The notes beneath the pieces were generated by a model. It had not been told where the DNA came from, did no database searches, and saw nothing but the letters and a program-made list of their open reading frames with translations. From assembly GCF_021732705.1 (NCBI RefSeq), contig NZ_JAKFUM010000011.1, positions 62,001 through 126,000 on the forward strand: a stretch of 64,000 nt of DNA, read 5' to 3'. Source of the stretch: Nevskia sp. Lineage in GTDB: Bacteria > Pseudomonadota > Gammaproteobacteria > Nevskiales > Nevskiaceae. Positions 8,471-14,041 of the stretch are shown piece by piece. Positions within the stretch are counted from its first letter, which is position 1. Each line of letters starts with the position of its first letter. A program made the translations under genes and the position numbers.

Positions 8471-8989
8471 ATGTCGACCTCCACCTTCGAGCGCAAACCG
8501 CCGATCAAGCTCGCCGAGCTGTCATCGCTGTCGCCATCCGATCTCGCGACCGTCAACGGCGTGCTTGCGAAGCTGAAAGACCTGCCCGGCGCGCTGCTGC
8601 CGGTGCTGCATGGCATTCAGGACGCGCTTGGCCACGTGCCGAAAGACGCGGTGCCGATGGTGGCGAAGTCGCTGAACCTGTCGCGCGCCGAAGTGCATGG
8701 CGTGGTGTCGTTCTATCACTGGTACCGCACCGAAAAGCCGGGCGCGCACGTCATCCACCTGTGCCGCGCCGAAGCCTGTCAGGCGGTTGGCGGCCGGGCG
8801 CTGGAAACGCACGTGAAGGCGAAGCTCGGCATCGATTTCCACGAGACCACGGCCGATCGCCGCTACACCCTCGAACCGGCCTACTGCCTCGGCAACTGCG
8901 CGGTCGGCCCGAGCCTGCTGATCGACATGCAGCTGAAGGGCCGCGTGACGCCGGAGCGCTTCGATCGCCTGACCGGAGCGATGGCATGA
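8471..8989 (+). CDS. fdsG: NAD-dependent formate dehydrogenase gamma subunit FdsG
   Basis: FdsG is the NuoE-like [2Fe-2S] subunit of the soluble, oxygen-tolerant Mo-dependent formate dehydrogenase and relays electrons toward the FMN subunit. In 172 residues it has the thioredoxin-like ferredoxin fold with the four cluster cysteines arranged as CRAEAC and CLGNC, and the NuoE-type segment VHGVVSFYHWYRTEKPG. The start at 8471 begins the conserved region after a short leader. The stop overlaps the fdsB ATG (ATGA), giving translational coupling. Confidence 0.95.
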   Translation: MSTSTFERKPPIKLAELSSLSPSDLATVNGVLAKLKDLPGALLPVLHGIQDALGHVPKDAVPMVAKSLNLSRAEVHGVVSFYHWYRTEKPGAHVIHLCRAEACQAVGGRALETHVKAKLGIDFHETTADRRYTLEPAYCLGNCAVGPSLLIDMQLKGRVTPERFDRLTGAMA

Positions 8990-10581
8990 AGCCGATCACC
9001 GTCTACGTCCCTCGCGATTCGGCGGCGATCTCGCTCGGTGCCGATGAGGTCGCGGTCGCGATCGCGGCCGAAGCGACTCGTCTGGGTATCGCGATCAATC
9101 TCGTCCGCAACAGCTCGCGCGGCATGTTCTGGCTGGAGCCGCTGGTCGAGGTCGCGACCGACGCCGGTCGCATCGGCTACGGCCCGGTAGAGGTGGAGGA
9201 TGTCGCGAGCCTGTTCGCGGCCGGCCTCGGCAATGCCCATTCGCTGAATCTGGGCATCGTCGACGAACTGCCGTACCTGAAGACCCAAGAGCGCCTGACC
9301 TTCGCGCGCGCCGGCATCACCGATCCGGTCAGCCTCGACGATTACCTGGCCCATGACGGCTACAAGGGCTTGAAGAACGCGCTGGCGATGGAGCCGGCCG
9401 CGATCGTCGCCGCCGTCACCGAATCCGGCCTCCGCGGTCGCGGCGGCGCGGCGTTCCCGGCCGGCATCAAGTGGAGAACTGTTTTAGGCGCGCCTGGCGG
9501 CACGCCGGGGGTATTGGGGGCCGAAGGCGCGCAGAAATACATCGTCTGCAATGCCGACGAAGGCGATTCCGGCACCTACGCCGATCGCATGGTCTGCGAA
9601 GGCGACCCGTTCCTGCTGATCGAAGGCATGACCATCGCCGGCCTCGCGGTCGGCGCCACGCGCGGCTACATCTACCTGCGCTGCGAATACCCGTACGGCG
9701 AGCGCGCGCTGAATGAAGCGATTGCCAGTGCCTACGCGAGCGGCTGGCTCGGCGCGAACATCCAGGGCTCCGGCAAGCGTTTCGATCTGGAAGTGCGTAT
9801 GGGTGCCGGCGCCTACATCTGCGGCGAGGAAACTTCGCTGCTGGAATCGCTGGAAGGCAAGCGCGGCATGGTCCGCTTCAAGCCGCCGCTGCCGGCGATC
9901 AAGGGCCTGTTCGGCTGCCCGACGGTGATCAACAACGTCATCACCCTGGCCTCGGTGCCGGTCATCCTCGACAAGGGGGCCGAGTTCTACAAGCACTTCG
10001 GCGTCGGCCGCTCTCGCGGCACCTTGCCGGTGCAGCTCGCTGGCAACGTCAAGTTCGGCGGGCTGGTCGAGAAGGCCTTCGGCGTCACCTTGCGCGATCT
10101 GCTCTACACCTACGGCGGCGGCACGCTGTCCGGCCGGCCGATCCGCACCGTGCAGGTCGGCGGCCCGCTCGGCGCCTACATCCCGGAATCGCAGTTCGAT
10201 CTGCCGCTGGACTACGAGGCCTACGCCAAGCTCAACAACATGGTCGGCCACGGCGGCATCACCGTGTTCGACGACACCGTCGACATGGCCGAACAGGCCC
10301 GTTTCTCGATGGAGTTCTGCGCCACCGAGTCCTGCGGCAAGTGCACGCCGTGCCGCATCGGCTCCACGCGCGGCATGGAGGTGATCGACAAGCTCGTCGC
10401 CGGCGATCAGCCGGTCAAGCAGGAAGCGCTGCTGCGCGATCTCTGCGACACGATGCTGGCCGGCTCGCTGTGCGCGCTCGGCGGCATGGCGCCGTTCCCG
10501 GTGCTGTCGGCGCTCAACCATTTCCCTGACGACTTCCGTCCTCGTGCGACTGCGGCCCAAATGGCCAACGTCAACCGTTAA
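8986..10581 (+). CDS. fdsB: NAD-dependent formate dehydrogenase beta subunit FdsB (FMN/NADH)
   Basis: FdsB passes electrons from the formate dehydrogenase core via FMN to NAD. The 531-residue chain has a thioredoxin-like N-terminal part and a NuoF-like body: GLRGRGGAAFPAGIKW and CNADEGDSGTY (FMN/NADH site), GAYICGEETSLLESLEGKRG, and the [4Fe-4S] motif ESCGKCTPCRIGSTR. Two oddities stand out. Residues about 164-179 look like a short insertion written with codons rare in the neighbourhood (AGA, TTA, GTA, TTG, GGG). The last codons (Asn-Arg-stop) lie inside the left 46-bp inverted repeat of a mobile-like element, so the native C-terminus may have been altered. Confidence 0.95.
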   Translation: MKPITVYVPRDSAAISLGADEVAVAIAAEATRLGIAINLVRNSSRGMFWLEPLVEVATDAGRIGYGPVEVEDVASLFAAGLGNAHSLNLGIVDELPYLKTQERLTFARAGITDPVSLDDYLAHDGYKGLKNALAMEPAAIVAAVTESGLRGRGGAAFPAGIKWRTVLGAPGGTPGVLGAEGAQKYIVCNADEGDSGTYADRMVCEGDPFLLIEGMTIAGLAVGATRGYIYLRCEYPYGERALNEAIASAYASGWLGANIQGSGKRFDLEVRMGAGAYICGEETSLLESLEGKRGMVRFKPPLPAIKGLFGCPTVINNVITLASVPVILDKGAEFYKHFGVGRSRGTLPVQLAGNVKFGGLVEKAFGVTLRDLLYTYGGGTLSGRPIRTVQVGGPLGAYIPESQFDLPLDYEAYAKLNNMVGHGGITVFDDTVDMAEQARFSMEFCATESCGKCTPCRIGSTRGMEVIDKLVAGDQPVKQEALLRDLCDTMLAGSLCALGGMAPFPVLSALNHFPDDFRPRATAAQMANVNR

Positions 10582-10617
10582 ACGCAAAGGCGCAAAGGGA
10601 AAAGAAAGGACGCAAAG
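10572..10617 (+). repeat. Left 46-bp terminal inverted repeat of the GxxExxY element
   Basis: The 46 bases at 10572-10617 match the reverse complement of 11013-11058 at 45 of 46 positions (one A/G difference). The arm holds three GCAAAG units and an A/G-rich stretch whose AAAGGA serves as ribosome binding site for the gene starting at 10618. Its outer end carries the last codons and TAA of fdsB. Confidence 0.95.
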
Positions 10618-10995
10618 GTGGATGAAAATGAATGCTCGAAGATCATCATTGGTGCGGCCATCGAAGTTCATAACGAGCTCGGCGCTGGGCTGCTCGAATC
10701 AGCTTATGAAGCTGCGCTCGCAATCGAATTCACTGATCGCAGACTCCAGTTTCATCGACAACTTGCGTTGCCTGCACGCTACAAAGGTGTGGAGTTGGGT
10801 GATGCATACAGAATCGACTTTCTCGTTGAAGACTTGGTCATCGTTGAACTCAAAGCCGTTACCGCGCTGGCTCCAGTTCATTCCGCGCAAGTCCTCACGT
10901 ACCTCCGTCTTTCCGGCAAGCGTCTCGGCCTGCTGTTCAACTTCCATGCGGATTCAATCCGCGACGGCACCCGCCGCGTCGTCAATCAGCTCTGA
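10618..10995 (+). CDS. GxxExxY family protein (PD-(D/E)XK nuclease-like)
   Basis: A 125-residue protein of the GxxExxY family (PF13366/TIGR04256 type). The signature appears as GLLESAY near residues 24-30. The downstream stretch YRIDFLVEDLVIVELKAV carries Asp followed by Glu-x-Lys, the layout of PD-(D/E)XK nuclease active sites; family function is not established. The start is GTG at 10618, the first base after the left inverted repeat, with AAAGGA inside the repeat about 7 bases upstream, so repeat and gene form one unit. The coding sequence is much less GC-rich than fdsB and fdsA. No partner gene is present. Confidence 0.88.
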   Translation: MDENECSKIIIGAAIEVHNELGAGLLESAYEAALAIEFTDRRLQFHRQLALPARYKGVELGDAYRIDFLVEDLVIVELKAVTALAPVHSAQVLTYLRLSGKRLGLLFNFHADSIRDGTRRVVNQL

Positions 10996-11012
10996 ATTCC
11001 TCTCAGGCGTTA

Positions 11013-11058
11013 CTTTGCGTCCTTTCTTTTCCCTTCGCGCCTTTGCGTTTAACGGTTG
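11013..11058 (-). repeat. Right 46-bp terminal inverted repeat of the GxxExxY element
   Basis: Mirror copy of 10572-10617 with a single mismatch. It lies 17 bp after the stop of the GxxExxY gene and 46 bp before the fdsA start. If the operon is transcribed through, the two arms could pair around a 395-nt loop, which might affect fdsA expression. Confidence 0.95.
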
Positions 11059-11104
11059 CTTTTCCCGCCGCTACGCAGCGATCAGTCTCCCGAGGTAAGC
11101 AGCC

Positions 11105-14041
11105 ATGTTCTCGATCATCGACAAGGATCTCGGCACCCCCGCGCCGCGCCCGCCGCGCAATGTCGGCCAGAAGACCGCCGTTGCCGAAATCCCGGCCAAG
11201 CAGATCACGCTCAGCATCGACGGCCGCGAGGTCACGGTGCCGGAAGGCACATCGGTGATGCGCGCCGCAGCGCTGGCCGACATCAACATCCCCAAGCTCT
11301 GTGCGACCGACACCTTGGAAGCCTTCGGCTCCTGTCGCCTGTGTCTGGTGCAGATCGAAGGCATGCGCGGCTATCCGGCCTCGTGCACGACCTTGGTGGC
11401 GGACGGCATGAAGGTGACCACGCAGAACGACAAGCTGGCCGACCTGCGCCGCGGCGTCATGGAGCTGTACATCTCCGATCACCCGCTGGACTGCCTGACC
11501 TGCCCGGCCAATGGCCACTGCGAACTGCAGGACATGGCTGGTGCTGTAGGCCTGCGCGAAGTGCGCTACGGCTACGACGGCGAGAACCATGTCCATCCGA
11601 AAGTGGACGGCAAGGCCAACGAGCGCTTCGTCGCGAAGGACGAATCGAACCCCTACTTCACCTTCGATCCGAGCAAGTGCATCGTCTGCTCACGCTGCGT
11701 GCGCGCCTGCGACGAGCAGCAGGGCACGCTGGCGCTGACGATTCAAGGTCGCGGCTTCGACTCCAAGGTCAGCCCGAGCCAGAACGATGACTTCATGGGC
11801 TCGGAGTGCGTGTCCTGCGGCGCCTGCGTCGCTGCCTGCCCCACCGCAACCTTGAGCGAGAAATCGCTGATCGCCAAGGGCCAGGCCGAGCACAGCGTCA
11901 CCACCACCTGCGCCTACTGCGGCGTCGGCTGCAGCTTCCGCGCCGAGATGAAGGGCGAAGAGATCGTCCGCATGGTGCCGAACAAGGACGGCCACGCGAA
12001 CCACGGCCATTCCTGCGTCAAGGGCCGCTTCGCCATCGGCTATGCCACGCACCAGGACCGGATCACCAAGCCAATGATCCGCGCGAAGATTTCCGACCCG
12101 TGGCGCGAAGTGAGCTGGCAGGAAGCGATCGACCACGCGGCGAGCGAATTCAAGCGCATCCAGGCCAAGGCCGGGCGCGGCTCGGTCGGCGCGATCACGT
12201 CGAGCCGCTGCACCAACGAAGAGGTCTACGTCGTCCAGAAGATGGTTCGCGCGGCGTTCGGCAACAACAACGTCGACACCTGCGCCCGCGTCTGCCACTC
12301 GCCGACCGGCTATGGCTTGAAGCAGACCATCGGCGAGTCGGCCGGCACCCAGACCTTCGACTCGGTGATGCAGTCCGACGTCATCGTCGTCATCGGCGCC
12401 AACCCGACCGACGGCCATCCGGTGTTCGCATCGCAGATGAAGCGCCGCCTGCGGCAGGGCGCGAAGCTGATCATCGCCGACCCGCGCGGCATCGATCTGG
12501 TGCGCACGCCGCACATCGAGGCCGACTACCACCTGAAGCTGCTGCCGGGCACCAATGTCGCGCTGATCAATTCGCTCGCCCACGTCGTGGTCACCGAAGG
12601 GCTGGTCAAGGAGGATTACGTCGCCGAGCGCTGCGATGTCGGCTCGTTCAACAAATGGCGCGATTTCGTCGCCCAGCCCCGCAACTCGCCGGAAGCGATG
12701 GAAGCGGTCACCGGCGTGCCGGCGGCGATGGTGCGCGGTGCGGCACGCCTGTACGCGACCGGCGGCAATGGCGCGATCTACTACGGCCTCGGCGTCACCG
12801 AGCACAGCCAGGGCTCGACGATGGTGATCGGTATCGCCAACCTGGCGATGGCCACCGGCAACGTCGGCCGCGAAGGCGTGGGCATCAACCCGCTCAGAGG
12901 CCAGAACAACGTGCAGGGCTCCTGCGACATGGGCAGCTTCCCGCATGAACTGCCAGGCTATCGGCACGTGTCCGATGTCGCGGCACGAAGCGAGTTCGAA
13001 GGCGAGTGGAAGGTGTCGCTGTCGAACGAACCCGGCCTGCGCATCCCGAACATGTTCGAAGCCGCACTGGACGGTGAATTTCTCGGCCTGTACGTCCACG
13101 GCGAGGACATCGCCCAGAGCGATCCGAACACCCAGCATGTGACCGCAGCACTGAGCGCGATGGAATGCGTCGTCGTCCAGGACCTGTTCCTGAACGAGAC
13201 CGCGAAGTTCGCCCACGTGTTCCTGCCCGGCTCGTCGTTCCTCGAAAAGGACGGCACCTTCACCAACGCCGAGCGGCGCATCTCGCCGGTCCGGCAGGTG
13301 ATGCGGCCGAAGTCGGGTGTCGGCGAGTGGGAAGCCACGCAGATGCTCAGCAATGCGCTCGGCTATCCGATGAACTACACGAGCTCGGCCGAAATCATGG
13401 ACGAGATCGCGCGCCTGACGCCGACCTTCAAGGGCGTGTCGTTCAAGAAGCTCGATGAACTGGGCAGCGTGCAGTGGCCGTGCAACGACGACGCCCCGCT
13501 CGGCACGCCGACGATGCACATCGACGAGTTCGTGCGCGGCAAGGGTCGTTTCCTGCTGACCGAATACGTGCCGACGCACGAGAAGGTCAACGGCAAGTTC
13601 CCGCTGATCCTGACCACCGGCCGCATCTTGAGCCAGTACAACGTCGGTGCGCAGACCCGGCGTACCGCGAACAGCGAGTGGCACAGCGAGGACGTGTTCG
13701 AGATCCATCCGCACGATGCCGAGACCCGAGGTGTCAAGGATGGCGACTGGGTCGGCATCGAAAGCCGCTCCGGCAACACCGTGCTCAGAGCCAAGGTCAC
13801 CGATCGCGTCCAGCCCGGCGTCGTCTACACCACGTTCCATCATCCGTTCAGCGGCGCCAACGTCATCACCACCGACAACTCCGATTGGGCGACCAACTGC
13901 CCGGAGTTCAAGGTCACAGCCGTGCAGGTGACGCGGGTCAGCCAGCCGAGCGAATGGCAGCGCCGCTATCGCGAGTTCAGCGACAACCAGCAGCAGTTGC
14001 TGCAACAGGCCAGCGATGTCGGCGCCGCAGTCGCCAAGTAG
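11105..14041 (+). CDS. fdsA: NAD-dependent formate dehydrogenase alpha subunit FdsA (Mo-bisPGD catalytic subunit)
   Basis: FdsA oxidises formate to CO2 at a molybdenum bis-pterin centre. The 978-residue chain has a NuoG-like N-terminus with a [2Fe-2S] ferredoxin domain (about 33-115, FGSCRLCLVQIEG), a His/Cys-ligated cluster (HPLDCLTCPANGHC), two [4Fe-4S] motifs (CIVCSRCVRAC, CVSCGACVAACPT), then the Mo oxidoreductase with its own cluster (CAYCGVGC) and the catalytic segment CARVCHSPT. The Mo ligand is cysteine (Cys397), not selenocysteine. The start is supported by GAGG upstream. The fdhD ATG lies within its last 26 bases. It is downstream of the inverted-repeat element. Confidence 0.97.
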   Translation: MFSIIDKDLGTPAPRPPRNVGQKTAVAEIPAKQITLSIDGREVTVPEGTSVMRAAALADINIPKLCATDTLEAFGSCRLCLVQIEGMRGYPASCTTLVADGMKVTTQNDKLADLRRGVMELYISDHPLDCLTCPANGHCELQDMAGAVGLREVRYGYDGENHVHPKVDGKANERFVAKDESNPYFTFDPSKCIVCSRCVRACDEQQGTLALTIQGRGFDSKVSPSQNDDFMGSECVSCGACVAACPTATLSEKSLIAKGQAEHSVTTTCAYCGVGCSFRAEMKGEEIVRMVPNKDGHANHGHSCVKGRFAIGYATHQDRITKPMIRAKISDPWREVSWQEAIDHAASEFKRIQAKAGRGSVGAITSSRCTNEEVYVVQKMVRAAFGNNNVDTCARVCHSPTGYGLKQTIGESAGTQTFDSVMQSDVIVVIGANPTDGHPVFASQMKRRLRQGAKLIIADPRGIDLVRTPHIEADYHLKLLPGTNVALINSLAHVVVTEGLVKEDYVAERCDVGSFNKWRDFVAQPRNSPEAMEAVTGVPAAMVRGAARLYATGGNGAIYYGLGVTEHSQGSTMVIGIANLAMATGNVGREGVGINPLRGQNNVQGSCDMGSFPHELPGYRHVSDVAARSEFEGEWKVSLSNEPGLRIPNMFEAALDGEFLGLYVHGEDIAQSDPNTQHVTAALSAMECVVVQDLFLNETAKFAHVFLPGSSFLEKDGTFTNAERRISPVRQVMRPKSGVGEWEATQMLSNALGYPMNYTSSAEIMDEIARLTPTFKGVSFKKLDELGSVQWPCNDDAPLGTPTMHIDEFVRGKGRFLLTEYVPTHEKVNGKFPLILTTGRILSQYNVGAQTRRTANSEWHSEDVFEIHPHDAETRGVKDGDWVGIESRSGNTVLRAKVTDRVQPGVVYTTFHHPFSGANVITTDNSDWATNCPEFKVTAVQVTRVSQPSEWQRRYREFSDNQQQLLQQASDVGAAVAK

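Follow-up and report, generated by a model that had tools for sequence, protein, structure and literature searches.

The window, by which we mean the whole stretch of Nevskia sp. DNA analysed here (64,000 nucleotides), carries fdsB (8986-10581, forward strand, its start inferred at the Met of MKPITVYVP) and fdsA (11105-14041, forward strand), and the two genes are separated by an element made of one gene between two inverted arms. A repeat search places the left arm at 10572-10617 (forward strand) and the inverted right arm at 11013-11058 (reverse strand). As a preliminary description of this DNA had reported, both are 46 bp long and agree at 45 of 46 positions; they are 98% complementary, with 395 nt between them. 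The enclosed gene (10618-10995, forward strand; 125 aa, GTG start) had been assigned to the GxxExxY family, which is confirmed by profile scores above cut-off for TIGR04256 (146 bits, cut-off 35) and PF13366 PDDEXK_3 (143 bits, cut-off 22). Each arm is composed of three units of the CGCAAAG type, read from the sequence, so that 3+3 units enclose the gene. In the left arm (forward strand) unit 1 lies at 10583-10589, unit 2 at 10591-10597 and unit 3 at 10611-10617, all three reading CGCAAAG. The right arm (reverse strand) has unit 3 at 11013-11019 (CGCAAAG), unit 2 at 11033-11039 (CGCGAAG, the sole mismatch between the arms) and unit 1 at 11041-11047 (CGCAAAG).

The arm is interwoven with its neighbours in the way that had been described. 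The ribosome binding site of the gene was said to be in the left arm, and a Shine-Dalgarno-like AAGGA is read there at 10606-10610 (forward strand), with unit 3 forming the spacer to the start codon; the gene indeed begins with the first base past the arm (GTG at 10618), and fdsB does end inside the arm with a TAA stop at 10579-10581. The element was also correctly described as AT-richer than its flanks, with a GC content of 0.521 against 0.671 for fdsB and 0.651 for fdsA, and of the 505-bp segments taken at 50-base steps through the 64 kb, none had so low a GC content. The local inverted-repeat score at the locus is 87, and the highest of 100 shuffles scored 28. Searched in the genome, 35 bases of the arm have 8 matches (up to 3 mismatches) and the reversed pattern has 0; a chance origin of the arms is therefore excluded. 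When 36 copies were aligned, conservation extended about 16-22 bp outside unit 1 on both sides, and the limits of the element are therefore roughly 10559-11063 (forward strand). The final codons of FdsB (NVNR-stop, within 10559-10581) seemingly come from the terminal sequence of the element, which may thus have changed the FdsB C-terminus.

The genome of the window (G000; 4.5 Mb, 28 contigs) contains a single GxxExxY gene but 8 paired arms. Further arm copies, which the preliminary description had proposed to look for, are indeed present: beside the fds element there are 7 hairpins that have these arms but no gene and that span about 110-150 bp, measured from the first unit to the last. In the relative G016, 28 of 33 further sites are clean arm pairs without a gene, and these 28, the 7 hairpins of the window genome and the fds element make up the set of 36 units; the remaining five sites were excluded for arms that are irregular, one-sided or nested. 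By eye, one G016 site (L296, G016:C4:20700-22300) appears to be a hairpin within a hairpin, with a CGCAAAG-type arm inside a CGCAGAG/CGCGGAG-type pair, and the same genome has a second GxxExxY gene (L065) with CGCAGAG arms. Panacagrimonas perspica (G021) has 91 exact double-unit matches, and in the 20 hairpins read there by eye the common ends are shorter, reaching about 5 bp beyond unit 1.

Comparing the outer ends of the fds element with those of gene-less hairpins (6 to 50 arms per genome), identity was highest within the own genome for G016, G030 and G021. For the window genome it was 0.82 with its own hairpins and 0.83 with those of G016, whose ends are the same. G032 (0.55 own, 0.60 with G030) and G014 (0.35 own, 0.41 with G021) did not match their own genome best, and the fds element of G014 has arms altered on both sides (CACAAAG). 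Lineage-specific outer ends are common to the fds element and the gene-less hairpins in G000, G016, G030 and G021. Within the seven fds elements each arm agrees with its own partner at 240 of 252 positions, against a mean of 204 when arms were dealt at random (21 of 1000 deals as good).

Of 18 genus genomes searched with FdsA, only G012 lacks a recognisable fdsB-fdsA junction, which leaves 17. The full element occurs at four of the 17 (G000, G016, G014, G005) and a gene-less hairpin with CGCAAAG/CGCAGAG units, judged by eye, at two (G001, G003). Eight junctions (G010, G009, G002, G013, G006, G017, G004, G007) have, again by eye, no element and 18-63 nt between fdsB and fdsA. The preliminary description would have been contradicted by a gene and repeats belonging to every related fds operon, and this is not what is seen, since 8 of 17 genus junctions show no element. 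The last three junctions hold another inverted repeat, again by eye (G015, L081; G011, L088; G008, L090), and the junction may therefore be a hot spot for hairpin elements. An fds element is also found in G030, G021 and G032, genomes of other genera that were chosen because they are gene-positive.

Two gene-less hairpin sites elsewhere vary as well. The first is occupied in G016, G014 and G005, decayed in G010 and absent from G013 and G002, while G009 has another repeat there and no flank was recovered for G015. The second is occupied in G016 and G014 and absent from G002, G013 and G005; G009 and G010 gave a single flank only. Presence/absence variation is therefore seen at three sites, in a collection of one genome per species and with diverged flanks that blur the exact joints. 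The 36 units, whose ends are approximate, showed no excess of direct repeats of the kind left by target-site duplication; 20 G021 units, also with inexact ends, gave a marginal excess (equalled or surpassed by 19 of 500 permutations). A single clade with support 97/93 unites the seven fds-located genes, which come from three genera. The fds copy is therefore old, and a fresh insertion at fds was rejected. We also observed that the fds-located GxxExxY gene of G014 (L045) clusters with another genus (95/88), and that the fds genes of G014 are about as close to those of the window as the ones of G005 are; element replacement is possible there.

The PD-(D/E)XK-like Asp...Glu-x-Lys pattern noted earlier is fully present in the window protein (D67, E77-x-K79, followed by Q91-x3-Y95) and kept across aligned members of the family: D67, E77 and Q91 are invariant in 24 of them, K79 occurs in at least 90% and Y95 is near-invariant. 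The conserved D/E/K residues argue for a putative catalytic activity. A predicted model of the protein (pLDDT 95.8) has Cas4 and lambda exonuclease as its top PDB fold matches; these are weak (best E 8e-3, TM about 0.5), with no match at E 0.001 or below, and the PDB holds no close sequence relative (one chain at E 0.077). Purifying selection acts on the gene, with dN/dS of 0.04-0.21 in eight of nine comparisons (the ninth not computable, and synonymous sites near saturation in several) and of 0.04-0.13 in five computable comparisons of the fds-located genes among themselves. Decay also occurs: L050 and L051 carry units on just one side, the catalytic Lys is missing from L050, and the genomes of the two have 3 and 16 C-type arm matches, respectively.

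An anti-phage defence gene encoding a Cas4-like nuclease would agree with the weak PADLOC matches to Cas4b/Cas4 (best E 5e-4). However, with the window protein or the clade-A alignment A2 as query, no match was found in 50,697 phage records or PHROGs and a scan of viral contigs gave one locus, and relatives of the window protein were found in 8 of 72,556 plasmids. They are nearly absent from phages and plasmids, and in the window the gene stands alone between two metabolic genes; we regard a defence role as very unlikely.

The architecture seen at fds is a property of the family. The family was found in 31 of 100 genomes searched, including that of the window. Among the 42 loci of the window genome and its relatives, 33 of the 41 testable ones have a flanking inverted repeat scoring above all 100 shuffles; the eight that fail include two gene fragments, and one of the 33, L053, has a repeat that is not built of units. 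We then used alignment A2 in a contig scan and kept the best 80 of at least 580 relatives (at least 589 stretches), from many bacterial phyla and some archaea. These 80 named loci are therefore biased to clade A, and one locus occurs in both sets, here as L143 and among the relatives as L032. Sixty of 77 testable named loci pass the shuffle test, although not every alignment among the 60 consists of units. An inward CRCNRAG unit is present on both sides at 65 of these best 80 of at least 580, and at least two units on both sides at 58; at 15 of the 80 inward units are absent on one side or both, three of them having incomplete flanks.

The arm units are strand-specific and face inward. At the named loci we counted 229 inward units upstream and 223 downstream; the opposite strand had 63 and 84, and far flanks 1 kb away had 45 and 33 with both sides taken together. 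At 40 loci of the relatives the inward counts were 62/58 for CRCNRAG, 16/17 for CRCRAAT and 28/36 for CRCRGAT, compared to 19/8, 2/3 and 1/4 for the opposite strand and, in the far flanks, 7/35, 2/5 and 20/9. Neighbouring units are 8-10 bp apart in 319 of 394 intervals, with a second small group at 17-22 bp (34 intervals), over 120 loci from both sets with one locus in both; five-fold shuffling gave 23 intervals in all. Three units is the commonest number per 150-bp flank (109 of 240), and 22 flanks have none. Tandem units spaced in this near-helical way resemble an array of binding sites for a protein.

Taken together, gene and arms recur jointly across phyla, and gene-bearing genomes contain cognate gene-less hairpins. 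An ordinary vertically inherited gene with incidental inverted-repeat flanks would accord with the single clade formed by the fds-located genes of seven genomes, but it is contradicted by arms in multiple copies, by the absence of the gene from 8 of 17 genus fds junctions and by the recurrence of this architecture at different locations in many phyla; we consider it extremely improbable. The preliminary description had instead seen a compact mobile or selfish unit that lacks a transposase. Recurrence across phyla strongly supports this proposal, while no movement was observed, no convincing target duplication was found and the fds copy is old.

In a tree of 40 proteins, from which the gene fragments L057 and L069 had been removed beforehand, three arm types (CRCNRAG, CRCRAAT or CRCRGAT) are distributed by protein clade. 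Mapped on the 39 labelled rows (L053 has no clear arm type), arm type requires 2 changes, the minimum for three types, whereas 500 shuffles required at least 11; host family (7 states, minimum 6) requires 12. The arm code follows the protein and not the host. This is also visible within single genomes, since in G058, G062, G065, G076, G077 and G082 two types of gene coexist and each keeps to its own arms.

Counts of the arm patterns over whole genomes point the same way. The A pattern occurs at least 5 times in 12 of 12 genomes that have a gene of the CGCAAAG type and in 8 of 84 without, the B pattern in 6 of 6 genomes with a clade B gene and in 5 of 92 without, and the C pattern in 12 of 13 genomes with a clade C gene and in 4 of 87 without. 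The clade A count excludes G010, G015, G092 and G099, and the clade B count excludes G037 and G061. Arms of the element itself add a few matches per gene-bearing genome, which matters at low counts such as those of G063 and G060 (6 each). At a cut-off of at least 10 the figures with and without the gene are 11/12 and 6/84 for A, 6/6 and 4/92 for B, and 11/13 and 2/87 for C. The p-values at the cut-off of 5 range from 4e-7 to 2e-11 and are only a guide because the genomes are related. Contrasts are also seen inside a genus: in g3 the gene and 40 matches occur together in G030, and G019 and G040 have neither; in g6, G033 has 23 matches and G022 none.

The opposite case exists in the window's own genus, where G001 has 102 matches and no gene. 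At least 10 arm matches with no cognate gene detected were found for A in G001, G003, G009, G013, G020 and G031, for B in G011, G034, G042 and G081, and for C in G038 and G081. Among them G042, of the same family (5.4 Mb, one contig, 99% complete), has 212 CGCRAAT matches and no detected GxxExxY gene. Upkeep is therefore independent of the gene, or the gene has been lost; the hairpins either persist after the gene is gone or can be maintained by other means. Such genomes would be expected if the hairpins were moved by another enzyme, a transposase or a RAYT-like protein, with GxxExxY as a passenger or maintenance gene. Yet a mere passenger would not be expected to show the match of clade and arm that 39 genes display, nor to have cognate arms in almost every gene-bearing genome, and we think that another enzyme is unlikely to be responsible. 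Because the motif follows the protein type and gene-less copies are scattered in the genome, the gene resembles the core of a widespread mobile-element family more than it does an ordinary bacterial gene. Linked inheritance alone would be able to make arm type follow protein clade; it does not easily account for units that are conserved while the outer ends have diverged.

The hairpins could also act as RNA. They would then be mainly host-useful RNA elements, transcribed from intergenic positions, folded and processed, and the GxxExxY nuclease would act on folded RNA, tuning operons like fdsBA. The RNA of the element folds better than 100 of 100 shuffles (z -7.8), the Shine-Dalgarno sequence of the gene is located in the stem, and the gene is under purifying selection as described above. 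By a heuristic ORF call, 30 of the 36 units are intergenic, and 19 of those lie between co-directional genes. Against this reading stand the units kept as tandem motifs at near-helical spacing and the arms whose spacers, by eye, are unpaired in some hairpins (e.g. L274, L290, L294). The fold best matches Cas4 and DNA exonucleases, if weakly, and the sites vary between related species. We therefore consider a principal role as RNA improbable.

The gene and its arms form a heritable unit with a deep clade-specific arm code and gene-less relatives. The explanation that we favour, and hold to be probable, is that of a widespread family of palindromic chromosomal elements in which a Cas4-like nuclease recognises the arm units of its own element and the gene-less hairpins are non-autonomous relatives. 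A full element would consist of one GxxExxY gene between inverted arms, usually of about three units each that are spaced about one helical turn apart. We infer both the recognition of the arms and the movement: the PD-(D/E)XK protein would bind the arm units of its own element as well as those of gene-less hairpins, and would nick or process the folded arms, either as a cruciform or in single strands exposed during replication. Processing of the arms would in turn allow copies to spread within the chromosome. The fds element would be an old resident, whose arm apparently supplies fdsB with its stop codon and the enclosed gene with its ribosome binding site. The arm units give GxxExxY a concrete candidate substrate and would explain hairpins that otherwise resemble intergenic noise. 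If it is true that the nuclease moves or copies hairpins, this would be a transposition route without a transposase.

Several known systems resemble the element in part. REP/RAYT is the closest functional analogue and the rRNA intervening sequence (IVS) is the closest in anatomy, each having a defining feature that the element does not share. REP and REPIN sequences are short chromosomal palindromes that are repeated tens of times, mostly between genes, and that are associated with a small protein, TnpA-REP (RAYT), for which a genome has one or a few genes. GxxExxY hairpins likewise are palindromes in many copies, most of them between genes, and go with a single protein gene. However, the enclosed gene encodes a PDDEXK_3 nuclease and not a Y1/HUH transposase, and the arms have tandem 7-bp units with the gene inside the palindrome, an arrangement that REP stems are not known to share. 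MITEs are similar in that gene-less copies share the arms of a gene-bearing element, but here the gene-bearing element has no transposase and there is no clear target duplication. With Cas4 and lambda exonuclease the protein shares the best, though weak, fold matches, and with Cas4 also weak profile matches and the motif order D...E-x-K...Q-x3-Y, an order common to Cas4 and RecB-like nucleases. It differs in that the window protein has 125 aa, lies outside any CRISPR or recombination operon in the window and is encoded within its own inverted repeat. In the literature searched, which covered no preprints and few subscription journals, two papers mention GxxExxY in passing, and neither a function for it nor an account of these elements was found.

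An IVS lies within 23S rRNA, from which RNase III excises it. A study of the Coxiella IVS describes an element of 428 nt that has inverted repeats at its ends and a single small ORF, S23p, ahead of which stand three GACAGAT heptamers in tandem (PMC4990558). Inverted repeats around one small ORF, with tandem heptamers, are thus common to both. In contrast, the S23p ORF encodes a four-helix bundle where the GxxExxY element has a nuclease fold, the arm units are different, and the GxxExxY element lies between the protein genes fdsB and fdsA and not in rRNA. We found that four-helix-bundle genes of TIGR02436 have flanking inverted repeats above shuffles at 14 of 22 loci in the window genome and its relatives, a few of these alignments being GC-rich or non-tandem repeats. 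We speculate, tentatively and with less confidence than we place in the family itself, on a class of transposase-free mobile elements in bacteria and archaea. In such a class a solitary Cas4-like nuclease would read tandem units and drive the copying of its own and of gene-less hairpins, with an arm code that co-evolves, and the unrelated S23p four-helix-bundle protein would share the architecture, making the rRNA IVS a special case. The similar architecture around four-helix-bundle genes would then offer a possible answer to what rRNA intervening sequences are.

TIGR02436 loci lying in inverted repeats include one in the window genome itself (L115, G000:C11:6158-6475) as well as L106, L108, L110, L112, L113, L119, L121 and L125. 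Several TIGR02436 repeats are made of other short tandem units, of the GTGAGGC, GGGAATC and GTAGATA types.
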